Virus record (IMG/VR): IMGVR_UViG_3300018048_000070
Coordinates: 1 to 22,816 of that record
From: a virus
Length of the DNA: 22,816 nucleotides
Direction: 5' to 3' (one strand)
Positions within the stretch are counted from its first letter, which is position 1, and every line of letters starts with the position of its first letter. The notes below the pieces were generated by a model. That model was given only the letters and a program-made list of their open reading frames with translations. It made no database searches and was not told the origin of the DNA. A program made the position numbers and the translations under genes. Positions 1 to 15,556 of the stretch are shown piece by piece.

Positions 1-2125
1 CTTTCCACTGCTTTGTAACTGTACCTAAGTCATAAGAGTCATCAATATTTGGAATGATACTTGAGTTAACATCAGCACCAAAGACAACATTATCTGCATC
101 TCCGTCACCAAGTTCAATTGTACCACCGTTAAACGCCGTAGTACCAACAACTACTAAGTTGTTATTAATTGTTGTAGTACCAGTTGCCGAACCAATGCTA
201 ATTGCTGTACCTGCACCTGCAATATTAACTGTTGTAGCGTTATCATTAACTAGGCTAATAGAGGTCTGTGTAGTATCTAGGTTACCGCCATTTAGATTAA
301 TATCTCCAGCAACAGTAACTTCGCCAATTGAGGAAGTACCATCAATTGAGAGTGTAGTACCTCCTGTAAGATTTAGCTCACCAGCATCAATATTAATTGT
401 TGATCCGCCAGTTGCTGAGTATGAAGCAGCAGAACCTGATGCAACCAATGGACCTAAGATTGTACCGCCTGATGCTGCATTAACAAAACCATCAACATAT
501 TGCTTAGTAGCAGCATGCAAAGGATCTGTAGGATCGGCATAAAGAGTGAGCATACCAAGCATTGAGTCGCCGTCTTTCGACAGGAAGCCTTCAGCGCCTG
601 TTGCAAAGTTATCCCATTCTGGAAGAACCGCAGATGCAGGACTATCACCACCAATAATATCTTGGTTTGCAATATAAGAAGATGAACCAGCTTTAACTAC
701 GTCATCTTTAAAGTATTGTGTGCCTGAATCCCAGACTCCTCTCCAGCGTATGCCAGAGTTAAACTTTTGCCACTTACCTGCAGCTAAATCGACGTTAAAG
801 TCTGCGCCTGCAGCGTGGGGAAGTAGTACGATATAAGTGTTACCACCATATGTAACTACTTCGTCTGTAGCATATTCTGTTAATGTTGCCCATGGACCAG
901 TGCTCTTAATGCCTGGTACGATCTTATCCCATGTAGCAGTAGTTGTAGGATTAACCGCAGTATTAGTTGACTTAGCTTGGTATAATGAACCACCGTAGCT
1001 AATAACTTGACCAATAAAATATTCTGTACCGCTAGACCAAACTCCTAAGTAAGAGAAGCCAGCAGAGTAAATTGACCAGAAACTTTCGTTTGTGGGTACT
1101 TCGCCTGTAGACTCTGCAGTATTAAGGTATACGTTACCACCATAATTGACTAAGTCGCCAATGTAATAAGTAGTAGCGTTAGAATATATGCCTTTATAAT
1201 CTGTTGCACCAGCTTGTAGTACCCAATCAACTAAATCTGTTGGATTAGTACCAAGTGTAGTTACTATAGCACGGTAAGAATTATTACCATATACGACGAT
1301 ATCGCCAATGTAATACTGTGTAGCAACGTCCCAGTTCCCAGAATAGTTAACACCGCCAGTAAGCAATTCCCAGCCAGCTTCGACTGTAGGAAGTACATTT
1401 GATTGTGTTTCACGTGATCGGTAGATTGAGTTACCGTAAACAACCAAGTCATTAACGTAGTATTCTGTAACTGCAGAGAATGTGCCTTGGAACTTAATAC
1501 CACCAACATACAATTCCCAGTATGTTTCATTTGACGGTACATTACCGGTTGTTTCTAATTTAGCACGATAGATGTTAGCGCCATATGCCACCAAGTCGTT
1601 AGGTACATAAGCTGTAGCATCGTTATAAACACCTTTAGGACTTACACCTTCTACGAACTTATCCCAGAATGTAGCATTAGTTGGTAAGTTACCAGAGGTA
1701 TCTTGCTTAGCAATATAGATTGAGCCACCGTAGTTAACTACGTCGCTCTTTTGATAGATGCCTGCATCGTCATAAATGCCTTCATACTGAATACCATCAA
1801 GGAATTTGCTCCAGTATGTTGCATTAGGAGGCGTAGTATTAACTGAATCTAGGATAGCTACGTAGACCACACCACCGTGTGCCACCGTATCACCAACCTT
1901 ATAGTTAACTGCTACATCAAATTCACCCTGGAACTTGAAGCCTTCAATCATTAATGCCCAGCGAGAAGAGTCAGTAGGGAGTGTACCAGCAGATTTTAAT
2001 GCATAGGTATAGACATATACATTACCACCGTACTTAACAATGTCATTCGACTCGTAGGTTGTTCCGGAAGCCCAGTCACCTGCAAAGTGAAATCTTAATT
2101 TACCTAAATCTATTAGTTGTGTCAT
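1..2125 (-). CDS. Large tail fibre with ten carbohydrate-binding-like repeats (C-terminus cut by window edge)
   Basis: The frame is open from the ATG (2125-2123) to the left edge, giving at least 708 residues. The start MTQLIDLGKLRFHFAGDW overlaps the previous gene by four bases. Residues about 12-508 are ten repeats of 47-52 residues, of the form GxWxxxTxYxxGDxVxYGGxxYxA, then GxxPTxxxxWxxxxxG. These resemble the chitin-binding-type modules (CBM5/12) found in glycosidases and in phage fibres, so binding of a surface polysaccharide is likely. Next is MLGMLTLYADPTDPLHAATK, ending QYVDGF (523-547), a common fibre shaft element. A Gly/Thr-rich beta region follows (550-688), then IIPNIDDSYDLGTVTKQWK (690-708). 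That last motif usually precedes a peptidase S74 chaperone, which would lie just outside the window. Confidence 0.85.
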   Translation of the reverse strand, partial: MTQLIDLGKLRFHFAGDWASGTTYESNDIVKYGGNVYVYTYALKSAGTLPTDSSRWALMIEGFKFQGEFDVAVNYKVGDTVAHGGVVYVAILDSVNTTPPNATYWSKFLDGIQYEGIYDDAGIYQKSDVVNYGGSIYIAKQDTSGNLPTNATFWDKFVEGVSPKGVYNDATAYVPNDLVAYGANIYRAKLETTGNVPSNETYWELYVGGIKFQGTFSAVTEYYVNDLVVYGNSIYRSRETQSNVLPTVEAGWELLTGGVNYSGNWDVATQYYIGDIVVYGNNSYRAIVTTLGTNPTDLVDWVLQAGATDYKGIYSNATTYYIGDLVNYGGNVYLNTAESTGEVPTNESFWSIYSAGFSYLGVWSSGTEYFIGQVISYGGSLYQAKSTNTAVNPTTTATWDKIVPGIKSTGPWATLTEYATDEVVTYGGNTYIVLLPHAAGADFNVDLAAGKWQKFNSGIRWRGVWDSGTQYFKDDVVKAGSSSYIANQDIIGGDSPASAVLPEWDNFATGAEGFLSKDGDSMLGMLTLYADPTDPLHAATKQYVDGFVNAASGGTILGPLVASGSAASYSATGGSTINIDAGELNLTGGTTLSIDGTSSIGEVTVAGDINLNGGNLDTTQTSISLVNDNATTVNIAGAGTAISIGSATGTTTINNNLVVVGTTAFNGGTIELGDGDADNVVFGADVNSSIIPNIDDSYDLGTVTKQWK
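602..2092 (-). repeat. Ten protein-coding repeats of about 141-159 bp in the large fibre gene
   Basis: The translated fibre contains ten consecutive units with shared W, Y, GDxV, YGG and PTxxxxW positions; for example units seven and eight contain YYIGDLVNYGGNVY and YFIGQVISYGGSLY. Units differ clearly at the DNA level, so the array is old or has diverged under selection. Units nine and ten have insertions before the last Trp (for example GADFNVDL). The first unit lacks the entry Gly-Trp pair of the others. Confidence 0.85.
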
Positions 2126-3289: not shown

Positions 3290-3490
3290 TTATTCTTCGG
3301 TTATATCTTTAACCTCGATCTTCTCCCATTTACCTATCGGGCATCGAGCTCCAGATAATCTCGTTTTGGCTGGCATAAAGCAGCCACACTTTTTACATAC
3401 GTTTATATTAGGTATAAGATGGACGCATCTTCCACAAAGAGCAATTCTTCTTGCTACTTCGGGATGTCCTTTACCTTCTACTATCGACAT
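3290..3490 (-). CDS. Small zinc-ribbon-like protein (DUF6171-like)
   Basis: A 66-residue protein with six Cys: CGRC at 19-22, CKKCGC at 32-37 and Cys50 in CPIGKW. Two CxxC pairs ten residues apart are a classical zinc-ribbon arrangement. The ending CPxGKW after a third cluster is like small phage proteins classed as DUF6171. Zinc binding is inferred from the spacing; no DNA- or RNA-binding role is known to me. The gene has its own exact late promoter 19 bases before the ATG, so it is expected to be made late with the virion genes. AAGGA lies about eight bases before the ATG. The predicted transcript begins at or next to this site. It could be a minor virion component or a late regulatory factor. 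Confidence 0.7.
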   Translation of the reverse strand: MSIVEGKGHPEVARRIALCGRCVHLIPNINVCKKCGCFMPAKTRLSGARCPIGKWEKIEVKDITEE

Positions 3491-3518: not shown

Positions 3519-4562
3519 TTATTTATTTCCAGGCACAGCTTTAACTGGTAATTTTTTAGCACCCCTATCGATATCTCCCCTTCCTTGTGACAGCGGCCGA
3601 TATAACTCACGAAGCTCCTGGGTTTTCTTAAAGTAAGCATCCATTCTTTCTTCGACGTCATCTTGCCAATTGAAGTATAAACCTGACCATTTACATGCTA
3701 GTATGTTACCTAGAAGTCTTTTTGCTTCGTCGATTCCGTGGCGTCTTTGAGCTATAGTTAATACACGGGAAAATGGCTGGTATACCCCAGCGCCCTCTGA
3801 CTGATATTTGGAAATATTTGTAACAACTTTACCGAGAGCAGCTCCAGTAATAGAGAATTCTGATGCAGTTGTAGTATAAACGTGTGTGCAATTCTCAAGT
3901 AGTTTTACACCGGAAGCATCCTTTGGTAAGATTTTATTCCATCCAACCCTACCAGCTAATCCGTGTACTGCATCTCCTACTGTTAAAGGATGTGGCTTAA
4001 GATAAACATCATCTGTTTCATTTATAAGTCTTAATACATAATCAACATCAGCTAGGTCTAAAAGATTATGGCCCGGCATAAAAACAACATGATTTATCCC
4101 CTGGTATTTTTCTTCTAGATCAAGTAGATCATACTTGTCGCATAAGGCATCAACAAAGTGAGAAAGAGCTTTCTCTCCTTCTTCCCCAGAATCTTCTTTA
4201 GATGCAAAATCAATTATTCTAGAGTTAATCTCTCTTGATTGAGTAGCAGAATAAAGACCACCTCCTGGGAATTCAGTATAGGTGTATTCTGAAAAGTTAT
4301 TAGGTTGATTTGCTGAAACGTCGTAGGAGATGTAATAGAAATCCGGGCACTTACTACGGAGAGTAGCCTCCTGATCAGTAGCCCAGTTATTTCTTTTAGA
4401 CCTTGAGATATAAGGACCTATCTTACCAGAACCAAATGTCTTTTCATCAGACATAAGCTGGTCAGATAGACGAGGAGCAATCTTAGGTTCGACCTTTGGC
4501 TCTTTTTCTCCGCTTGCTGGGGAATAGTTTGCATACTGGTCTAGATTTGTTTTTACTTCCAT
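3519..4562 (-). CDS. Capsule-biosynthesis / glycosyltransferase-like protein
   Basis: A 347-residue protein unlike its structural neighbours. Residues 157-250 resemble the second half of bacterial capsule-polysaccharide proteins of the KpsC/KpsS (PF05159) type and other GT-B enzymes. DDVYLKPHP (184-192) contains the KPHP motif. It is followed by LLENCTHVYTTTASEFSITG and AALGKVVTNI, in the place where such enzymes have a Ser/Thr-rich loop, an acidic residue (Glu235 here) and a small-residue GxPV segment. VFMPGHNLLDLADVDYVL precedes it. The N-terminal 60 residues are polar and probably disordered; the C-terminus is basic. If active it could transfer a sugar from a nucleotide-sugar donor, for example to a fibre or to host surface glycan, but neither donor nor acceptor can be read. 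The start has AAGGT before the ATG. It might also be an inactive fold used structurally. Confidence 0.5.
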   Translation of the reverse strand: MEVKTNLDQYANYSPASGEKEPKVEPKIAPRLSDQLMSDEKTFGSGKIGPYISRSKRNNWATDQEATLRSKCPDFYYISYDVSANQPNNFSEYTYTEFPGGGLYSATQSREINSRIIDFASKEDSGEEGEKALSHFVDALCDKYDLLDLEEKYQGINHVVFMPGHNLLDLADVDYVLRLINETDDVYLKPHPLTVGDAVHGLAGRVGWNKILPKDASGVKLLENCTHVYTTTASEFSITGAALGKVVTNISKYQSEGAGVYQPFSRVLTIAQRRHGIDEAKRLLGNILACKWSGLYFNWQDDVEERMDAYFKKTQELRELYRPLSQGRGDIDRGAKKLPVKAVPGNK

Positions 4563-4593: not shown

Positions 4594-5103
4594 TTATTCT
4601 ATAGTTATGGTACTAGCATCAATTAAGAATGGATCTTCATTAGAATCTGTAATATCAGCTAATTCTTGAGCCTTAGCATATAGAGTATCTATATTGTCTG
4701 TAGGAGTGAGTCCTAGAGCAGCCTCTCTTTGATTTCTAAGTACCATCCAATCTATTTGTCTAAGAACACGGTCGCGACGAGTGCGAAGGTAGTTCCACCG
4801 AGCTGAAAGGCGTGGCAATTTAGCTGCTTCGGGCACTTCTTCTAGTCCATAAGTTCTTACCCATTTACCTGTTTCAGGATCTTTTGAACAAGAAACTGCT
4901 TTAATAGCCATTTCTGCAGTTGCTTGAACATCGATTTCATCAGGACCCAATGGTGGAACCATAACATAGTCTGTACCAGCTAGAGTCATTTCAGTAATTC
5001 TAGCTGGTAGTGTTGTATTAACAAGAGAGTCGCGAAGCTCCTTCTCTGTCAACGGAAACTCTAAAACCTCATCAGTTTCTTTGTTTACTCTTGCGTATAG
5101 CAT
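4594..5103 (-). CDS. Possible tail-fibre or tail assembly chaperone
   Basis: A 169-residue protein starting LYARVNKETDEVLEFPLTE, a style of start seen in small phage proteins related to tail-fibre assembly. Residues 101-124 are ARWNYLRTRRDRVLRQIDWM plus a few more. That is, WxxLRxxRDRxLRxxDW, which resembles the core of the phage tail assembly chaperone family (PF16778) and other fibre assembly proteins. The C-terminal segment is helical (LYAKAQELADITD). If the match is right, it would help fold or attach one of the nearby fibres, probably the Thr/Tyr-rich protein encoded immediately upstream, and might not remain in the virion. The start has AAGGAG at good spacing. A gap of 31 bases follows before the next gene. 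A short structural protein is the main alternative. Confidence 0.5.
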   Translation of the reverse strand: MLYARVNKETDEVLEFPLTEKELRDSLVNTTLPARITEMTLAGTDYVMVPPLGPDEIDVQATAEMAIKAVSCSKDPETGKWVRTYGLEEVPEAAKLPRLSARWNYLRTRRDRVLRQIDWMVLRNQREAALGLTPTDNIDTLYAKAQELADITDSNEDPFLIDASTITIE

Positions 5104-5113
5104 AGGATGCTCC

Positions 5114-6820
5114 TTATTGCGTGAACCAGGTCGTAGACCTAGAAGTCGTAAATGATGTTGTTACGTTATCGTCCGTGAGCCAAGATGTAATAACCTCTGT
5201 ATCTCGCGACGTCTCCCTTTGAGTTAGGTAATCTGTATCATATGTAGTCGTAGTTTCACGAGTAGTCGGAACTTCATATGAAGTAGCACCAGTATTCTGT
5301 AAGTACGTAGTCGTAGTTGTACGAGAGGTACTCTGTGTAGTTGTGTAATCAGTATCCCTATATAATGTCGATATACCTGACTCGGTTGGATATGTAGTAG
5401 GTTCTAATTTAGAACTGAAAGTAGTTGAAAAACTAGTATACTGTGTTGTACCTGGAGTAAGAACAGTATACTGTGTCGGGTAAGTTGTAGATCCAGTATA
5501 TTGTGTTACCCTGTTATTATATCCCTCACCCTGTGTAGGAACATAATACTCACTATCATAGGTGGTAGTCCCAGGGGTATACTCAGTAACAGTTGTGTTA
5601 TCGTATATAGTATCCCTAGAGTAGATCGTAGATCTTGAGCTTGGGGGTACATACCCGCCAGATGGATTAGCCTCTACTACGGTTTCTGTAGTATTACAGA
5701 TCAAAGAGCAATCCTGACATGCCGATGACAAATAAGAAACGTCTGTATATTGGTCAAGGGTATATCCTGAATTATAAAACACAGTAGAAGATACTGGGAA
5801 ATTCTGGTAAGATTCATTAATTACAGTAGTATAAAGAGGCACTTGGCATGGTTCACACCGAGATTCGACATCTTGACAATATGCAACTACGCCTGGGTCC
5901 GAAGATGGATAACAGTCAAAGACCCCATTATCTGGATCAGTTTGACCGGACCCATAACCAGCAAATTCAGTTGTGGTAGAAAATGAAGTTACTGTAGAAA
6001 CATACTGAGAAACATAAAAGGTTGGTTGACTATATGAATAAGCAGTTAGTCTCTGTCCGGGACTATAATAATTTACAGCAGGAGAGCATGATACAATTGA
6101 GCAGTTACCCGGTATAGAGTCCTGCCCAATAAGACTACCATTTACATCGTAGTAGTAACATCCTGATGCAGAAGACGGATAGTTGTACGATGTAGTTGAT
6201 GTACTATATGTAGTAAAGAAATACCCAGTAACAGTTGTATTTTGGTCATAGTCTGTTGGTCTGGTAAGAGGTACAACAGTATAACTAGTATACGTAGTTG
6301 GACGTGTAACTGGTACACTATATAAAGTAGGATACGTATAGTAATAAGTGACATCAGTATTTGTTGGAGTAAATACAGTATACGCCGTTGGTGTAGGAGT
6401 ATAACTAGTATACGCCGTTGGTGTAGGGGTATAACTAGTATACGCCGTTGGTGTAGGAGTAAGTACTGTATCAATCGACGTATTATAATTACCTTTAAAC
6501 GTATCATTACTAGTCGGAGTATATAATGTAGTTACATCATATGCGGTTGATACAGCATAAACCCAAGATGTAGGAAAATTGGTAACAAAACTGCTTGAAT
6601 ACTCAGTATCTACACCAGGATCAGTAAATAGGGTATCGAAGGTAGTAGTAGTTATATTCGACGTAGGTGTAGGTGTATACCACTGGGTTATATAAGTGGT
6701 AGGAGACAGCGTAGGAGCTGAAGTAGTAAAACTAGTATTAGTTAGCCTAGATGTAAGAAAGCTAGTAATAGCTGACGTGTACTGTCCTTTTGGAGTACCT
6801 AACCAGAGTCTACGTGACAT
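5114..6820 (-). CDS. Thr/Tyr-rich repetitive virion protein with cysteine-rich centre
   Basis: A 568-residue protein of very biased composition, dominated by Thr, Tyr and Ser, with Pro, Val and Asp. After a short start (MSRRLWLGTPKGQYTSAITS) come imperfect repeats of about 8-10 residues of the form TPTxYTxYT, including three near-identical decapeptides TPTPTAYTSY at about residues 118-148. Residues 221-375 form an island with ten Cys (for example CQDVESRCEPC and CQDCSLIC) plus Gly and Asp. Residues 376-568 return to Thr/Tyr repeats (TTYPTQYTVL, TRETTTTYDTDYL). I recognise no catalytic motif and no named family. The alternating pattern would fit extended beta-structure, as in a fibre shaft. 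The start is good: AAGGAA lies just before the ATG. Its place among fibre genes implies a virion or fibre role, but this is inference. Confidence 0.6.
   Translation of the reverse strand: MSRRLWLGTPKGQYTSAITSFLTSRLTNTSFTTSAPTLSPTTYITQWYTPTPTSNITTTTFDTLFTDPGVDTEYSSSFVTNFPTSWVYAVSTAYDVTTLYTPTSNDTFKGNYNTSIDTVLTPTPTAYTSYTPTPTAYTSYTPTPTAYTVFTPTNTDVTYYYTYPTLYSVPVTRPTTYTSYTVVPLTRPTDYDQNTTVTGYFFTTYSTSTTSYNYPSSASGCYYYDVNGSLIGQDSIPGNCSIVSCSPAVNYYSPGQRLTAYSYSQPTFYVSQYVSTVTSFSTTTEFAGYGSGQTDPDNGVFDCYPSSDPGVVAYCQDVESRCEPCQVPLYTTVINESYQNFPVSSTVFYNSGYTLDQYTDVSYLSSACQDCSLICNTTETVVEANPSGGYVPPSSRSTIYSRDTIYDNTTVTEYTPGTTTYDSEYYVPTQGEGYNNRVTQYTGSTTYPTQYTVLTPGTTQYTSFSTTFSSKLEPTTYPTESGISTLYRDTDYTTTQSTSRTTTTTYLQNTGATSYEVPTTRETTTTYDTDYLTQRETSRDTEVITSWLTDDNVTTSFTTSRSTTWFTQ
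6378..6467 (-). repeat. 30-bp tandem DNA repeat, three copies
   Basis: On the plus strand the unit starts GTATACGCCGTTGGTGTAGG. Copies lie at 6378-6407, 6408-6437 (one mismatch) and 6438-6467 (first 25 bases match, then it diverges). Each encodes a decapeptide of the type TPTPTAYTSY. The near identity of copies suggests recent slippage or unequal recombination within the Thr/Tyr-rich gene. Confidence 0.9.
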
Positions 6821-8211: not shown

Positions 8212-8466
8212 CTATTCTTTATTTACTAAAGCAGTAAGTAAATTCTTGATGTCAGATAAATCGGTCTTTATATTATTTATATCCGATTCTACATCTACCA
8301 TCTTGGTTTCCATATTATATTTAAAAGCTTCTTCTTCTTCTATTTTATTTCTTTTTTGAATATAATCAGAAAAAGCCTTATTGTCTTCGTTAATCACGGC
8401 TTTATTTCTTGTGTCTTTTAAAAGATGTTCGTGCCCGTCAAACGGTTTTACTTTAACTAGTGACAT
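8212..8466 (-). CDS. Small coiled-coil protein of the tail-fibre cluster
   Basis: An 84-residue charged protein whose ATG shares a base with the previous stop (TAATG), so it is probably translationally coupled to the 600-aa virion protein. Residues 1-30 are polar (VKVKPFDGHEHLLKD). From about residue 30 on it is predicted helical with a heptad-like pattern of hydrophobic residues (KMVDVESDINNIKTDLSDIK, ending NLLTALVNKE), consistent with a coiled coil. No Cys, membrane segment or signal peptide is present. I do not recognise a named family. Coupling to a structural gene and placement before a fibre gene suggest an oligomerising connector or a fibre-assembly helper. The second half of the gene contains a late promoter for the next gene. 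Confidence 0.6.
   Translation of the reverse strand: MSLVKVKPFDGHEHLLKDTRNKAVINEDNKAFSDYIQKRNKIEEEEAFKYNMETKMVDVESDINNIKTDLSDIKNLLTALVNKE
8274..8281 (-). promoter_or_regulatory. T4-type late promoter TATAAATA, upstream of the S74 fibre gene
   Basis: Exact consensus inside the small coiled-coil gene, 70 bases before the fibre ATG. In this AT-rich coding stretch (NNI codons) a chance match is possible, so confidence is lower. Confidence 0.5.
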
Positions 8467-10268
8467 TATGCTAACGCTATAATCCTTAGATTCTTACACT
8501 TAGGTACAATTGCAGAATCTGTTGATGTAAATGCAATCTTAAATACGATGCTTTCAAAAGGGGGAAGATCGAGTAGCTCTACTTCTACCTCTTGGAATTT
8601 CTTATCTAGAGATACAGGCATAAGAGATACTAATTCATCAATCTGCTGGAATTCGTTTTCCTCGATATTATCGGATTCACCAACTAGACTTGTTTTATAG
8701 AATACTTTAATATTTGATCCCGCTGGTCGATTAACGTCCAACCTGAGGTTAATAGAGGTAGAGGGATTAACAAAGTCAATTTTACGAGTAATATACTTAG
8801 AGTATACCGAACCACCCGAAGGAGCTTCTTCAGCAACAAAGTTTCTACCGATTACAATAGTATATGTACCAGTATTTGTAGCACATGTACCACCCGAAAT
8901 TCTAGTAAAAGATATTTCATCAGCATTAGAAGATATAGAGGATATACGATAAGTTCCGCTATTAGTAGTATTGGAATCTGTAATAGTTGCTATTGTTCCA
9001 GGTACTAATTTGAGTGCAGCATCCTGTTGTGCCAATGGGACTGTAAGTATACCAGAGGTTGACGTAGTAGATGTAAAAGTTACAGAAGAAACAGCAGTCA
9101 TAAAATTCGTATAATCTTCTGCTAGAGCATTCTCACTTGATTCGTCAGGATTGTTTATTAGATTCTGCGCTGTTAGTACACCAAGCTGCTGTTGATCAAT
9201 TACAGGAGATAACCTAGTATTTTGAGACGATAGACCAATCCTATAACTAAACGAATCTGCTCCAGATAGGTTCTCTGCTTTAGTAACAGCGTTAGCAATA
9301 ATTCGGGATTTAGCTAGTTCTGTTGTTCCAGGATCAAGAACTGTATAGTCTAAATCCTGAGAATAATCGGAGTAGGTACCTTTAAACAAATGCTGTACCT
9401 GAGTAGTTGTTTCTTCAATTTTAGCTGTAATAGGATACAGTGCATTAACTACAATATTTTCAGTAGCGGTTACACGAGTTCCACCAAATCTAGCATCAGC
9501 ATTAGCTGCTGTCGGAAGAGTAACAGTATAACCATTAAGACTAGCATTCGATATAGCTAGAGGAGTATTCAATACGTTTGTAAAGTCCACCCCGTGTATA
9601 GTACCAGTTGTACCAAACACTTTATCTACTTCTGCTATTCCAGATAGCTTAACAAATGAACCATTAGTCATACCATGGTTAAAGTGATATACCCTCATGT
9701 TAGTAGATCCGGAAAAGGTCTGGCATGGATCTTCTTCTAGAACTTGTGTTTCCATAGCTGCAGTATTAACATTAAAGTTAATATTACCAGCTGCGGTTGT
9801 ATCAAACTTAGCGCGGAAGATAGAAAACTTAAGATCCTGCTTTTGCTCTGGTGTCCAGGTTGAAGTATTCTGTGACTTGAATAGGGATCCAAGATAAGGC
9901 TGCTTAATAATTCTTTTACCAGTAATTAGATCTGTAGTATCTAGCTCAGATATAAACACGGTGTACTTCTTTGAATCGGATCCGAGACAAAGAGCATATT
10001 CACCCTTTTTTAAGAAAACTGGGCTATCAAATCTTACAATAGTACCAAGAGAGCCATCGGCTGAAGTTGATATATTTTTAGGATATACAAATTTATCCGA
10101 TAAAGGAATAATATAATCCCCAGGGAATCCATCCTTCATTTCTCTAATCTGGATCCTCATTGGGGTCTTTCTGTCTATATTCTTAAAGAATAATTCTACC
10201 TTAGTAATTACACAGGTCTTCTCAACAAGAAATGATTGAGCTAAAGGATCTACGACATTATACGACAT
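8466..10268 (-). CDS. Virion structural protein, probable partner of the DUF4815 protein
   Basis: The 600-residue product opens with DPLAQSFLVEKTCVITKVEL, then FFKNIDRKTPMRIQIREM and FDSPVFLKKGEYALCLGSDS. From recall, this arrangement (PLAQSF, KVELFF, IQIR, GEYA) is seen in the C-terminal part of large virion proteins of T4-like marine phages. It suggests a beta-sandwich presenting outward from the baseplate. The middle (residues about 270-480) is Thr/Ser/Asn-rich. The C-terminus returns to a conserved-looking segment (KYITRKIDFVNPSTSINLRL, VFYKTSL, LPPFESIVFKIAF). An exact late promoter lies in the end of the preceding gene, giving a leader of about 41 bases. Its stop overlaps the next ATG (TAATG). 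The protein could be a separated C-terminal portion of the DUF4815 protein. No enzymatic motif is visible. Confidence 0.65.
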   Translation of the reverse strand: MSYNVVDPLAQSFLVEKTCVITKVELFFKNIDRKTPMRIQIREMKDGFPGDYIIPLSDKFVYPKNISTSADGSLGTIVRFDSPVFLKKGEYALCLGSDSKKYTVFISELDTTDLITGKRIIKQPYLGSLFKSQNTSTWTPEQKQDLKFSIFRAKFDTTAAGNINFNVNTAAMETQVLEEDPCQTFSGSTNMRVYHFNHGMTNGSFVKLSGIAEVDKVFGTTGTIHGVDFTNVLNTPLAISNASLNGYTVTLPTAANADARFGGTRVTATENIVVNALYPITAKIEETTTQVQHLFKGTYSDYSQDLDYTVLDPGTTELAKSRIIANAVTKAENLSGADSFSYRIGLSSQNTRLSPVIDQQQLGVLTAQNLINNPDESSENALAEDYTNFMTAVSSVTFTSTTSTSGILTVPLAQQDAALKLVPGTIATITDSNTTNSGTYRISSISSNADEISFTRISGGTCATNTGTYTIVIGRNFVAEEAPSGGSVYSKYITRKIDFVNPSTSINLRLDVNRPAGSNIKVFYKTSLVGESDNIEENEFQQIDELVSLMPVSLDKKFQEVEVELLDLPPFESIVFKIAFTSTDSAIVPKCKNLRIIALA

Positions 10269-10285
10269 TTATTAACTAGCCTCGT

Positions 10286-13200
10286 TTATATTAAGCTTCC
10301 GCCTTCGACTGTATTATTTATAAGAAGCCTAACAGCCTCTTTTGCCCAGCTTTCATCAATGCCAGGGTTGTCGATCTGTGTAGCATATGTTACCGCTTGA
10401 ATTGCAATTTGATTAGAGATGTCTTCTACATTAGAGCCTTCGACAGTATTTAGATAGTTTGTTACAGATGCATCAGAGTCTGCACCATATCCTCTAGCAA
10501 CTCCAACCTCGATCATAGTCTTAACTGCAAGTCCTAGCTTTTCAGCATCTTCGTTATATGCGTCAGGAACTTGGGTTGCATCAGCATATCCATCGATAAT
10601 GTTAGATCCAGATGTTGTAGCATTTGCTAGGGTTTCTGCTGTAATACCTTGTGCAGCAAGATATGCTTCTGCTTCTATTCGATCCGATTCTGTCATATTA
10701 GAACCAAATGCATAGTTAAATATACCGTTAATATATCCAAGTGTATCTACTACTTGAGATCTTGGAGGATCTAGATCTCCATCATCGTCATCATCAGGAT
10801 CAAGATCTACGTAAGTTTCGATGTAGATTGTATCCTTAGGAACTGTGTAGTTACAGTAGTACTCTGAATCGGATTCTATTAGAACTGCAGATTCTCCCCA
10901 GTTGCCATCAGCTATCATTTCATAGTAATCATAACCACGACACTCATAACGGTTATGAGTACCAGCTGCAATAGGATCGGTAGGATCGTATGTTTCAGCA
11001 AGATCTTTTTCTTCCTGTGTAACGACTTCACCCTCACTTTCACGCTCAGCAAGTACTACCGGGGTTACATATCCGCATTCTTCTGAACCGTATTCTTCAA
11101 CGTTCTTATATGTTCCCCCGACCCCATCGTGATATTCTACATACTTAATAAATCCTGGCTGGAAGCATTCGGTATTACCAGTAGGAGTACCAGCAGCTGG
11201 TACATCATCTACATACTTACAATCTTCAACGTTATTTGCTTCGATTAAGGATTGGTAAGTATTACAGTCTCCTGTAATATAGTTATATGTACCATCGAAA
11301 TATTGTCCATATAAATCTGTTCCATTCTTACAGAAAGTTTGTGCTAATGTTCCAGCAACGTCGCATGGGTTAGTAGGAACACACTGACTAGAACCTGTTT
11401 CGGTAATAACAGTTGTTGTTGTACAATCACCATTACCATCAGGACCCGCAGCAACTGTTGCCATTAGATTAAAGCTAACATCATCACAGTAAGTATCAAG
11501 TATGGTTCCACCTGGTGGACAAGTTTGCGTAACTGGTGGAACTGGTGGTTCTTGCGGGGTTCTTGTTACAGTGGTAGTCCCGGTCCCAGTTGTAGGCACA
11601 GGAGTCTTGTATCCGCATACCCCAATATTTTTTGCTTCTATTAGAGTTTCATATGTACCGCCAGATCCATCATAGTATTCGCCATATAGATCAAATCCTT
11701 TGCAAGATTTACCCTTAAGCTTACCACCTTCGAAGTAGTTTGTTCTTGAAGAACTTTCAATAACAGGCTTACTTGTAACAATGGCGTTTCTTGTTGATAC
11801 GATCTCGTTTTGTATATTCTGGAGTTCGCCAGAAGAGGTAAACGTCATTTCTGCAGAGGTAAACTCGTAAGTAGGATTGTTTTCAAAATCATCTGTCATT
11901 CTGATAATATATGATCCGGTATTAAAGTTATACTTTTCTGCAGAGTAATGGAATGTACCCTTGAGCTTTCCATTATCATCGGTAGCAATCATTCTTCCTT
12001 GTTGACCTATAGCATTAATAGTAGTCCTGGTATCCCCATTTACAAGATCATGCTCATATAGCATAGTTGATTTACAATCTGCTGTAACATCAATATTATT
12101 AAAGAAGATATACATGCGAGTATCAGGCATTAACCCCTCAGCCTCGAAGTTAATAGCAACATCGCGCATCTTAGCTATAACAGAGGAAGATCTAACAATA
12201 TCATGTCTTGTTTCAGTTGTAATCTCTTCTGTATAAGTTGTTTCGGTACCGACTCGAGTCCCGATTTCTTGTGTACCTTGATATGTACCAAAGTGAACAG
12301 TTTCCCATGCTCCCCAAACTGTTCCATATGTACCTTTTGCTTTTGCATCAGCAGTAAGCGACGAATAGTTATCAACGGATACCGGGAGGTCAGGAAGGCG
12401 AATAGTATCAATCCATATATCAGATTGCTTACCTTTCATCTTACCGCGGAACGACACTACATCGTATGGATTTAGATTTTCTACTTTAGAGGATCTGTTA
12501 TTAGAGATCATCCTTTCTTCCGTATATGGAAGGGTGTAAAGATCTCCAGTTTTAGCATATCCAGCAGCTGTTCTTTCAGCGTCTGTGGTTGCAACCTCTT
12601 TTAAAGTAAATGCTTCGGTCTTACATAAAGGTCTAAGCTCTTTCTTATCATAATCGATTGCAACACCGTAGTCAGGATTATACACATCGCCAATACCATG
12701 ACCTTGGAATGAATCTACAACAAAGCCATTCTTAAACTTATCAAATCCATTAATATCTTTAATCTGATAGTTTTGTGTATCAACCTCAAGCTGGTTAAGA
12801 GAGGTATAATATTCGATGTTCTTGATTCTATTCTCAAGTTTACCAATCTGACGCATTGTAAATCTACGGTTATCGATCTTAATAATATCAATATCAGTTG
12901 ATAAGTTAAATACGTATGGCTTTTGCTTAAGAATATAGAGAGCCATTGAATCTTCAGGGGTAAGAGGCTCTTTAGCTTCAAATCCGCTTTCACCCTTAAT
13001 TACTTTAATACGTCCATCGCGATTAATAACAATCTTATCTGTTCGAGGTAGGTAATAATCATATGATGTAGTAATATCATTTTCAAAGTCTGGGAATTCC
13101 CCTACACTTGCTCCAGTGCCAGAAAATCCAGTACCTGCATCGTTAATCTTAGGACGGAAATCCAAACAATCTCGAAGTACGTACTCATTACCACCTAAAA

Positions 13201-15556
13201 TAAGGGTAGGAATATCCTTATAATCAATAGAATATGAATCAACAGAGAAGTAGTCTCCTGTTCCATGTGTAAAGTAATCGAAGGTAATACGGATTGGCCC
13301 AGTAGGAGCATTTGATCCTCTCTTCAATCTAAGAGAACCTAATCCATAGTATGTTGCCTTTTGACCATTGTCAAGAGTATATCGATTAGTGATATCTACT
13401 TCTGTTGTGCTATTATATGTTGGATCTCCAAATACGCCAGTTGTAGTCATCTTAACAGATACTAATCTATAGATGTCTGCTTTACCTAGAGAGATACTCT
13501 GAGCTGTAGATGTTGCCTCAGATGTAATGTCAAGCTGGTGGTTAGACACTAAGGTCTTAATCTTCTTATCAGCAGCTGATCCATTCTTTGAGACAGTAGT
13601 AACTAGCATAACTGTTTCAGTAGTATATCCTTTAGCTGACACATCAACTGTAAGTACAGAGTTAGATGCTCCTGAAATAGTTACATCACCCGAAATATCA
13701 ACTACATCGCCATTGGCAACATACATTTGCATATTATCAAAAGAGAATGATGAGAATGATTCGTTAACACCAGCATCTACCTGAACTACGCCGTTTGTAA
13801 GTGTTCTCTCGAATATTCTTCGTGTCTGATATATGGTATCTACGCCAGTAGGGTCAATTGACTTAACAATATTAACTGGTAACGGGAATATGTAAGAATT
13901 CTTATCAGTATCCCACAACTTAGATTTTACAGATGAGAATATCGAGCCAATCCGATCTGCATTAGCTGCAGGAGATACGCTAATTGTTGTATCATTTGTA
14001 ACAGCGGTAACCCTGTGTGTGGAACCACCAACGTTTATATAGTTACCTATAGCTAGTTCTGTAAGGAATCGCGTACCAATACCCTGAATTGTATTAGAAG
14101 CATTAGTAGTTGAAATAGTACCTGTTAAATTAGCTAGCTCCTCAACTACATCAGCGGTAAAGTCAGAAGAGTATACTGAATTAATATAGACTATTTGCTT
14201 GGCATCGTTTGTAAACGAAAATCCAGTTTTCATCTTAATATCAAAGAGATAAATGTTATACTGAGCAGTAGTTGTCCCTGGTGTACCAGAGAAGAATTCT
14301 GTATGACGAATACGAGCAGTACCGATTGCTACTCCCTCAGGTACACCCGGGGTAGAAGTAAATTGGCTGTATATTTGTACTTCAGGAAGATTGTCTATTT
14401 CTTCTGATACGCCATTAAGATTGGTAACACGAACGTAATTACCAAATGGGACATAGACTGATCCTGATTCTACTGTTGTAAAATCTCTTGCTTTATCTGC
14501 CGGTATAGCTGCGGTCTTAAGATTATCAATCTCATATCCTTTAACATAAGCCTTACCAGGAGAGATCTTATTAATAAACTTATTTGCATCACCACCTTCT
14601 GCAGCGGTATAATATCCATCGTTTTTAGAAAGAGAAGTTCTTTTATGTTCTAGTAGAGTAAGATCATATGGGCGAACTACATAGTCTCCTGACTCATCGT
14701 ATGTGCGACGAGCGAGTGTGTCGCCTAGAATATTGTAAGCAGTACTCGTTATAGCAGATATAACTTTTTTATTCTGTATACGAGCGATCTCTACAAAATC
14801 CGGATCAACTATGTCATCTGCTTGGAAAGGCCTGCTTGTAATAGTAAGGGTTACATTAAGACGATCAGCACCTGGAGCTGCATAGTTATAAGATCCATTA
14901 GCTGGATCATTTAGGCTAGCATCATCTGTAAATTGTTTAATAGATTGCTTAACATCAAAGCCAACAATAAGAGATGTGATTGGGCCATACTTGTTTAGGA
15001 TTGCTGTTTGATCAGCAAAGTATACAAAGAATCCGCCAACGTAAACTATTCCGCTTGTTACAATATATGCTGTTCCCACAGCGTTAACAGATGTTGCTGC
15101 TGTTGTAACAGAAACTGTTTTATCTTCGCTCCATATTAGCTCAGATTGGGCAAAGCCAGATTTCTCTTTGCTTTTACCAGAGTTCAAATATTTAATATAG
15201 ATTGTAGGTGGATCGCCAGATTCTGTAGCCTGGGTTGCATTTATAACCTTTGCTTTTAAGCCCGACTTTACCCCATATACATCTTGACCGATTAATGACA
15301 ATACACTAGAATCTGCATCAGCGGCTAGCTTAACTGAGTGATACTGATTATCCAAGGTCTGATGACCTCCCTGAATAAGAGCACCTTCTTTAAAGATATT
15401 GTCACCAAAAGATTTAATCTGATCCTGAAGAATAGATTGAATCTGCGTCAATTCTCTAGCTTGTACAGCAACACCTGGCTTAAATAAGATCTGATGAAAC
15501 CCTTTGGTCTTATCAAAGTCATCATAATACGGATCAGTGTTTAGATTTATTGCCAT
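10286..15556 (-). CDS. Giant baseplate/tail structural protein with N-terminal DUF4815-type region
   Basis: This 1756-residue protein is the largest product here. Its N-terminus (NTDPYYDDFD, GVAVQARELTQIQSILQDQI, FKEGALIQGG) is typical of the DUF4815 family found in T4-like marine phages. It continues to about residue 900 with FLVEIARIQN-like and CLDFRPKINDAG segments and the helical LENRIKNIEYYTSLNQLE. DUF4815 proteins are virion components; baseplate-rim attachment is inferred from gene order, where T4 has gp9-gp12. Residues about 1285-1570 hold cysteine-rich repeats described separately. An Asp-rich linker DLDPDDDDDGDLDP near 1580 precedes a helical, Cys-free tail of about 170 residues. 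The start has AGGAA eight bases upstream, and an exact late promoter sits 34 bases before the ATG. The family call is good; the role of the C-terminal third is unknown. Confidence 0.82.
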   Translation of the reverse strand: MAINLNTDPYYDDFDKTKGFHQILFKPGVAVQARELTQIQSILQDQIKSFGDNIFKEGALIQGGHQTLDNQYHSVKLAADADSSVLSLIGQDVYGVKSGLKAKVINATQATESGDPPTIYIKYLNSGKSKEKSGFAQSELIWSEDKTVSVTTAATSVNAVGTAYIVTSGIVYVGGFFVYFADQTAILNKYGPITSLIVGFDVKQSIKQFTDDASLNDPANGSYNYAAPGADRLNVTLTITSRPFQADDIVDPDFVEIARIQNKKVISAITSTAYNILGDTLARRTYDESGDYVVRPYDLTLLEHKRTSLSKNDGYYTAAEGGDANKFINKISPGKAYVKGYEIDNLKTAAIPADKARDFTTVESGSVYVPFGNYVRVTNLNGVSEEIDNLPEVQIYSQFTSTPGVPEGVAIGTARIRHTEFFSGTPGTTTAQYNIYLFDIKMKTGFSFTNDAKQIVYINSVYSSDFTADVVEELANLTGTISTTNASNTIQGIGTRFLTELAIGNYINVGGSTHRVTAVTNDTTISVSPAANADRIGSIFSSVKSKLWDTDKNSYIFPLPVNIVKSIDPTGVDTIYQTRRIFERTLTNGVVQVDAGVNESFSSFSFDNMQMYVANGDVVDISGDVTISGASNSVLTVDVSAKGYTTETVMLVTTVSKNGSAADKKIKTLVSNHQLDITSEATSTAQSISLGKADIYRLVSVKMTTTGVFGDPTYNSTTEVDITNRYTLDNGQKATYYGLGSLRLKRGSNAPTGPIRITFDYFTHGTGDYFSVDSYSIDYKDIPTLILGGNEYVLRDCLDFRPKINDAGTGFSGTGASVGEFPDFENDITTSYDYYLPRTDKIVINRDGRIKVIKGESGFEAKEPLTPEDSMALYILKQKPYVFNLSTDIDIIKIDNRRFTMRQIGKLENRIKNIEYYTSLNQLEVDTQNYQIKDINGFDKFKNGFVVDSFQGHGIGDVYNPDYGVAIDYDKKELRPLCKTEAFTLKEVATTDAERTAAGYAKTGDLYTLPYTEERMISNNRSSKVENLNPYDVVSFRGKMKGKQSDIWIDTIRLPDLPVSVDNYSSLTADAKAKGTYGTVWGAWETVHFGTYQGTQEIGTRVGTETTYTEEITTETRHDIVRSSSVIAKMRDVAINFEAEGLMPDTRMYIFFNNIDVTADCKSTMLYEHDLVNGDTRTTINAIGQQGRMIATDDNGKLKGTFHYSAEKYNFNTGSYIIRMTDDFENNPTYEFTSAEMTFTSSGELQNIQNEIVSTRNAIVTSKPVIESSSRTNYFEGGKLKGKSCKGFDLYGEYYDGSGGTYETLIEAKNIGVCGYKTPVPTTGTGTTTVTRTPQEPPVPPVTQTCPPGGTILDTYCDDVSFNLMATVAAGPDGNGDCTTTTVITETGSSQCVPTNPCDVAGTLAQTFCKNGTDLYGQYFDGTYNYITGDCNTYQSLIEANNVEDCKYVDDVPAAGTPTGNTECFQPGFIKYVEYHDGVGGTYKNVEEYGSEECGYVTPVVLAERESEGEVVTQEEKDLAETYDPTDPIAAGTHNRYECRGYDYYEMIADGNWGESAVLIESDSEYYCNYTVPKDTIYIETYVDLDPDDDDDGDLDPPRSQVVDTLGYINGIFNYAFGSNMTESDRIEAEAYLAAQGITAETLANATTSGSNIIDGYADATQVPDAYNEDAEKLGLAVKTMIEVGVARGYGADSDASVTNYLNTVEGSNVEDISNQIAIQAVTYATQIDNPGIDESWAKEAVRLLINNTVEGGSLI
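10315..10322 (-). promoter_or_regulatory. T4-type late promoter TATAAATA, upstream of the 600-aa virion gene
   Basis: Exact consensus inside the last codons of the DUF4815 gene, 46 bases before the next ATG; predicted leader of about 41 bases. It would allow expression independent of the giant upstream gene. Confidence 0.65.
10847..11704 (-). repeat. Cysteine-rich repeat region of the DUF4815-type protein
   Basis: Residues about 1285-1570 contain at least four related units, each bounded by a pair of Cys about 28-37 apart. They contain DLYGEYYDG-GGTY and IEAxNxxxCGY-like elements: CKGFDLYGEYYDGSGG, CKNGTDLYGQYFDG, CFQPGFIKYVEYHDGVGG and CRGYDYYEMIADGNWG. Between the first two units are Pro/Thr linkers and further Cys pairs. 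The number of units is judged by eye. Confidence 0.75.

Follow-up and report, generated by a model that had tools for sequence, protein, structure and literature searches.

A Thr-rich, length-variable fibre-like protein of a T4-like phage and its recurrent pairing with a putative glycosyltransferase gene

The window analysed here, 22,816 nt of IMG/VR virus record IMGVR_UViG_3300018048_000070, is part of the genome of a T4-like myovirus similar to the pelagimyophages. In gp6 the nearest isolates, 37-38% identical, were Methylophilales phage Melnitz and Pelagibacter phages HTVC008M and Mosig. Read in the order of transcription, the minus strand carries a gp5-like hub gene, gp25, gp6 and baseplate wedge genes (a gp8-like one among them), followed by a VrlC-type protein in two genes (1756 and 600 aa), an 84-aa structural protein, a 318-aa S74 protein, a 126-aa fibre-like protein, the 568-aa Thr/Tyr-rich protein which is the subject of this study (P0001), a 169-aa chaperone-like protein, a 347-aa protein, small genes and finally a fibre with chitin-binding-type modules. 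The block after VrlC is the counterpart of the pelagimyophage host recognition cluster, as that cluster is described in passages of PMC7029224. Searches made to place the host found no psbA in the fragments, and a gp23 query gave no match in any control. The features discussed below are collected in Table 1.

Table 1. Features of the P0001 locus, in window coordinates.
Feature	Position	Strand	Basis or remark
Thr/Ser/Tyr-rich fibre-like protein P0001, 568 aa	5114..6820	-	ORF, ATG start, TAA stop
Conserved N-terminal part of P0001, residues 1-117, starting MSRRLWLGTPKGQ; candidate attachment part	6470..6820	-	Identity to relatives
Three 30-bp copies (TPTPTAYTSY units), residues 121-150; length-variable tract 1	6371..6460	-	Alignment gaps
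Ten-Cys island, residues 221-375	5696..6160	-	Every Cys kept in six relatives, the most distant at 43% identity
Core of the Cys island, residues 276-345	5786..5995	-	Recombination exchange between relatives (dS pattern)
TPGTTQYT, one-unit (30 bp) length difference to L002; length-variable tract 2	5435..5458	-	Alignment
Conserved C-terminal part, residues 479-568, ending TSRSTTWFTQ	5117..5386	-	93-96% identity to L003 and L004
169-aa tail-fibre-assembly-chaperone-like protein	4594..5103	-	PHROG 8716 and 4912, weak Phage_tail_APC (PF16778)
347-aa putative glycosyltransferase	3519..4562	-	PHROG 26179, 'unknown function'
K-P-H-P motif, residues 189-192 of the putative glycosyltransferase	3987..3998	-	Alignment of 36 clusters
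66-aa six-Cys protein	3290..3490	-	Beside the Thr-rich/enzyme pair in 10 of 37 loci

Some further observations were made on the neighbouring genes. The split of the VrlC-type protein (8466-15556, minus strand) is found likewise in the covered parts of two related IMG/VR contigs, L002 and L004, whereas VrlC is one long gene in HTVC008M, Mosig and Syn33; Cys-rich repeats of the form C(R/K)GFDLYGxYYDG occur in the 1756-aa part. The last fibre gene (2-2125, minus strand) encodes several CBM5/12 modules (E 6.5e-32) and is truncated by the end of the contig. The 66-aa protein follows the pattern CxxC..CxxCGCFMPAKxRL..CPxGKW.

P0001 contains 138 Thr (24.3%), 70 Ser (12%), 62 Tyr (11%) and 41 Pro, and exactly ten Cys, at residues 221, 240, 245, 303, 315, 322, 325, 368, 371 and 375. 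This agrees with the first-pass annotation, which had described a product dominated by Thr, Tyr and Ser, interrupted by a ten-Cys island and carrying three nearly identical 30-bp repeats. The repeat array spans 6362-6462 with 3.4 copies at 90% match and is the sole tandem array within the window; copies 1 and 2 are one base apart, and copy 3 deviates only in its last two codons. The proposed period of 8-10 residues held in part, as the Thr autocorrelation peaks at lags 10 (1.55x) and 8 (1.36x) but also at lags 4 (1.38x) and 3 (1.35x), giving a mixed periodicity. An AlphaFold2 monomer model (pLDDT 26) has a weak beta core and is otherwise without confident structure, and it was not used for fold searches.

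No match to P0001 was found in Pfam, PHROGs, NCBIfam, PDB or INPHARED, the PDB also being searched by profile, hence the earlier remark that no named family has this design stands and there is no confident match to a fibre family. A tblastn search of INPHARED with the whole protein, in which low-complexity filtering limits what can be found, returned nothing, and nor did searches with the N-terminus, the Cys island and the C-terminus separately, two of which had been proposed as checks. An HMM of P0001 found no relative among the ORFs of HTVC008M, Mosig, Melnitz, Syn33 and BUCT-ZZ01, and these phages have no Thr-rich ORF in the stretch examined. No relative was found in the cellular genomes searched.

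Relatives of P0001 were detected in IMG/VR only. They are 492-654 aa long (L003 558, L002 578, L004 588, the four contigs L009-L012 654, and L025 and L026 492), with conserved ends and variable repeat tracts, which bears out the suggestion of a length-variable protein; a scan with the C-terminal motif for further relatives returned only loci already known. Identity to P0001 is 89% for L003, 80% for L004, 66% for L010 and 43% for L025, and within the N-terminal part it reaches 100%, 97% and 77% for the first three. As L025 is 60-89% identical in six neighbouring genes, P0001 evolves faster than its neighbours. We considered that the frame might be an artefact of antisense low-complexity DNA and dropped this explanation, since codon conservation and dN/dS argue for a protein: the frame is kept in five further non-identical genomes with low dN/dS at both ends, and is therefore a real gene. 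Against L003 and L004 the N-terminal 117 residues give dS 0.06 and dN 0-0.011 (dN/dS 0 to 0.19) and the C-terminal part gives dN/dS 0.07-0.11, while the first repeat tract shows dN 0.34-0.40 and 6-10 gaps.

The first-pass annotation had proposed comparing the repeat number in related genomes, and it differs among the relatives. Along 10,039 aligned bp, the contig of L002 and the window are separated by 3 mismatches and a single 30-base gap, and this sole indel is one unit (TPGTTQYTGS) within the P0001 gene, present once more in L002, with the reservation that contig assemblies of tandem repeats can err. The change of copy number demonstrated here, by one 30-bp unit, lies in the second repeat tract, near residue 455, and not in the three-copy array that had been singled out, which is identical between the window and L002 and differs in the other relatives.

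The Cys island is in part exchanged between phages. Between L004 and L010, residues 276-345 give dS 0.10, against 0.34-1.5 in the rest of the gene and the neighbouring genes, and between the window and L004 the pattern is the reverse, with dS 1.55 in the same residues against 0.06-0.70 elsewhere in the gene. These opposite patterns identify an exchanged module inside the island. Further, the dS of 0.06 for the N-terminal 117 codons to L003 and L004 is well below the 0.18-0.58 of the flanking genes, which suggests that this segment was recently replaced.

The Thr-rich gene sits directly upstream of the chaperone-like gene, and the two are linked in all nine contigs in which they were found. Its place in a tail-fibre cassette beside such a gene favours a tail-fibre reading, in line with the fibre-type role first proposed. 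The gene two positions downstream was absent from that account, and its link to Thr-rich proteins, with the motif described below, is added here.

A profile built from five divergent members of the family of the 347-aa protein retrieved 124 IMG/VR loci, 80 of which were kept and, with the window and nine isolate loci, formed 36 enzyme clusters at 80% identity. The family is phage-specific, with weak but consistent signals of a glycosyltransferase. In the alignment of the 36 clusters the K, the H and the final P of K-x-H-P are invariant. Among the 36 cluster members, Pfam reported PF05159 in four (best E 6e-4), GT52 in one (E 6e-4) and polysialyltransferase in two (E 0.05), while the window protein itself matched none of these and gave no KpsC family-level match. 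A profile of all 36 members had a single match in the PDB up to E 10, namely KpsC (E 0.22), which aligned at the K-x-H-P and S-E blocks. AlphaFold2 gave a poor model (pLDDT 39) with which Foldseek ranked many GT-B enzymes at the top, none of them significant. GT29 sialyltransferase-like genes (PF00777) lie near the pair at L090:2730-3482 (+, E 5e-9) and L112:6652-7275 (-, E 2e-9), both above the cut-off, and a PHROG 28018 gene occurs close to each of them.

The HP motif of bacterial sialyltransferases takes part in binding CMP-Neu5Ac, and enzymes mutated in it are less active (PMC2169525). The present family resembles the CMP-sugar enzymes KpsC, GT52 and GT38 in its conserved HP motif and its weak profile similarity, and differs from them in its restriction to phages, its weak family scores, and in that neither the catalytic D/E-D/E-G of sialyltransferases nor the QxxxD of KpsC was identified by eye in the 36-cluster alignment. 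Taken together, the invariant HP, the weak profile matches, the Foldseek ranks and the GT29-like neighbours favour a GT-B enzyme using a CMP-sugar, with putative catalysis.

The PHROG 26179 relatives in Caulobacter phages Lullwater and Cr30 each adjoin a Thr/Tyr/Ser-rich ORF; in Lullwater the enzyme is gp42 and the Thr-rich protein gp41, and the Thr-rich protein of Cr30 is AGS81089.1. Using the rule of at least 17% Thr and at least 36% Thr, Ser and Tyr together, with thresholds set after the first loci had been seen, we found a qualifying ORF 5' of the enzyme gene in 33 of 36 clusters, at positions from a 21 bp overlap to a distance of 878 bp. None of the 297 remaining ORFs of the representative loci passed this rule, nor did any of 234 ORFs in segments of five T4-like isolates. 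A scan of 84,980 cellular genomes for the enzyme gave one locus, on a phage-like contig in an Alteromonadales MAG, and this locus is also paired (a 302-aa ORF with 29% Thr and 24% Ser, ending beside the enzyme gene), which brings the pairing to 34 of 37 clusters. In L095 a qualifying ORF is present but overrun by the start codon chosen for the enzyme, and in L067 the contig reaches no more than 678 bp beyond the 5' end of the enzyme gene. Stenotrophomonas phage DLP_6, with the enzyme and no Thr-rich ORF in its record, is a real exception, which we count against a glycosylated fibre. Fisher's test gives 2e-43, a value that overstates the evidence because the enzyme gives the loci a common descent and the thresholds were set post hoc; the argument for the pairing is carried by the zero background and the variety of phages.

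The carriers are T4-like (L010, L085 and L092 by gp6, and also Cr30), Autographiviridae of the T7-like kind (Lullwater, Quill_5.2 and BL198) and Straboviridae (KVP40 and related Vibrio phages); the pair is further found in a phage with an SU10 adaptor (L087), in one with an internal virion protein (L095), and beside the tape measure gene of the siphovirus-like L124. A relative of the chaperone-like protein occurs in 16 of 37 enzyme loci, where its gene usually separates the Thr-rich ORF from that of the enzyme. Two observations concern the composition of individual loci. The loci L103-L140 encode giant Thr-rich proteins of 750-1535 aa with 34-39% Thr, starting MAIYVNDSGTLRQI (for example L134:57-4661, plus strand), followed by the enzyme gene and a second gene of unknown function, of about 313 aa. 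The second gene after that of the enzyme is a QueC-like PP-loop gene in Vibrio phages and at two further loci (L149:6091-6744, L126:6464-7135 and KVP40.0258).

The Thr-rich partners are mostly without recognisable homology or confident alignment, yet they have a common period of four. Thr is enriched at lags 4 and 8 and depleted at lag 2, with the unit T-[S/T]-[R/F/Y/W]-x. Motifs were counted against shuffled sequences in 24 partners, with the giant MAIYVNDSG group left out, and in 65 other ORFs of at least 12% Thr as controls. TSR was observed 109 times against 10.9 in shuffles (10x) in the partners, and 8 times against 10.9 (0.7x) in the controls; for T[ST][FWY].T the counts were 210 against 27 and 4 against 11.5. 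P0001 alone has 4 TSR against 0.4 and 13 T[ST][FWY].T against 1.9. Several partner groups have in common a short basic N-terminus (MSRRxW, MLRRW or MSRRI) and a C-terminus TSR[ST]TxW[FI]T, and the C-terminal motif of P0001 recurs in L070, L075 and L077-L079.

The conserved enzyme link and a tetrad motif common to Thr-rich proteins of unrelated phages change the most likely identity of P0001. On balance we think it somewhat probable that P0001 serves a T4-like marine myovirus as a tail fibre or fibre-like adhesin and is the likeliest target of the glycosyltransferase-like enzyme two genes downstream, thus probably O-glycosylated. To the wider proposal we give about an even chance: that a phage-specific HP-motif family (PHROG 26179 and relatives) and a Thr-tetrad fibre form a widespread mobile two-gene module, in which the enzyme would O-glycosylate the fibre with T-[S/T]-[R/aromatic]-x as acceptor, so that several morphotypes would carry sugar-coated, length-variable fibres.

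The enzyme might instead alter a surface polysaccharide of the host, changing its serotype or excluding competing phages, with P0001 an ordinary unmodified fibre shaft that is merely co-located in the host-recognition region. This would fit the families hit by the weak matches (PF05159, GT52 and polysialyltransferase), which belong to capsule and LOS synthesis, and the published reading of the pelagimyophage glycosyltransferases between VrlC and the neck genes, which passages of PMC7029224 take as modifiers of host LPS and which we count against a glycosylated fibre. Co-location alone, however, would not predict that a single uncommon kind of protein recurs in 34 of 37 clusters where no other ORF of the same loci qualifies, ordinary fibres included; moreover, the pair is also found in T7-like and siphovirus-like phages without such a region, and cellular genomes contain almost no members of the enzyme family. 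Hence we regard this explanation as unlikely. It seems still less probable that the 347-aa protein is a partner for folding, trimerisation or other processing needed by Thr-rich fibres and not a glycosyltransferase. A tight pairing needs only a specific partner, and the enzyme signals are weak, with no catalytic base identified, but the invariant K-x-H-P and the existing matches point to GT-B enzymes, 16 of 37 loci already encode a distinct chaperone-like protein, and GT29-like genes join the cluster in two.

That P0001 is a largely disordered, length-variable non-virion or surface protein outside the tail would agree with the lack of confident structure beyond the weak beta core in AlphaFold2, yet the gene lies inside the baseplate-fibre block beside the chaperone-like gene, in an order kept in every relative, and we hold this to be very improbable.

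If P0001 is a glycosylated fibre, its conserved ends may serve tail attachment and chaperone-assisted assembly, and its middle would consist of Thr/Ser/Tyr repeats that gain and lose units, with a Cys module, possibly stabilised by disulphides or metal, that is swapped between phages. The enzyme would place a sugar on Thr or Ser of the repeat tetrads in the host cytoplasm before assembly, the donor possibly being a CMP-activated 2-keto acid sugar such as Kdo or a nonulosonate, and the glycan-coated fibre would then fold with the help of the chaperone and be attached to the tail. Three roles of the coat are compatible with the data: it could lend stability to an extended shaft, protect against proteases or mediate binding. 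Repeat gain and loss along with module exchange would tune fibre length and binding.

Phage fibres typically vary at the receptor-binding tip. P0001, with both ends conserved and a variable middle, is unlike them, and it shares with the long tail fibres of T4-type phages the place among baseplate and fibre genes and the chaperone-like gene alongside, without sequence match to any fibre family. Bacterial serine-rich-repeat adhesins are hydroxyl-rich repeat glycoproteins encoded beside their own glycosyltransferases. The present pair resembles them in joining a gene for a hydroxyl-rich repeat protein to that of a putative glycosyltransferase, and differs in having Thr tetrads instead of Ser-rich repeats and a phage tail context; no Pfam family of GtfA/GtfB-type glycosyltransferases was among the matches of the 36 enzyme members.

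Virion glycosylation by phage enzymes is already known from mycobacteriophages, in which phage glycosyltransferases modify virion proteins (Freeman et al. 2023, as cited in PMC12619734 and PMC10877033). As far as these citing accounts describe that system, its targets are the C-termini of capsid and tail tube subunits, whereas the candidate target here is a Thr-rich repeat fibre, and the putative enzyme was reached through a different family. The pelagimyophage host recognition cluster has the same place in the genome, after VrlC, and the same mix of fibres and glycosyltransferases, and the passages of PMC7029224 on it name no pairing with a Thr-rich fibre. Nor did we find the pairing described in the open-access papers covered, most subscription journals being outside the scope of that search.

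The recurrence of the pairing in very different phages suggests that many phages may coat Thr-rich fibres with sugars. If so, the finding would assign a role to a PHROG family that has none so far and account for a group of low-complexity phage proteins that masking hides from searches, and glycosylated fibres may be widespread among T4-like, T7-like and siphovirus-like phages. The claim is testable in cultured Caulobacter phages. It would also reopen the view that host-recognition glycosyltransferases of marine myophages act on host LPS, as for enzymes of the PHROG 26179 type the fibre itself would be the better-linked candidate target.
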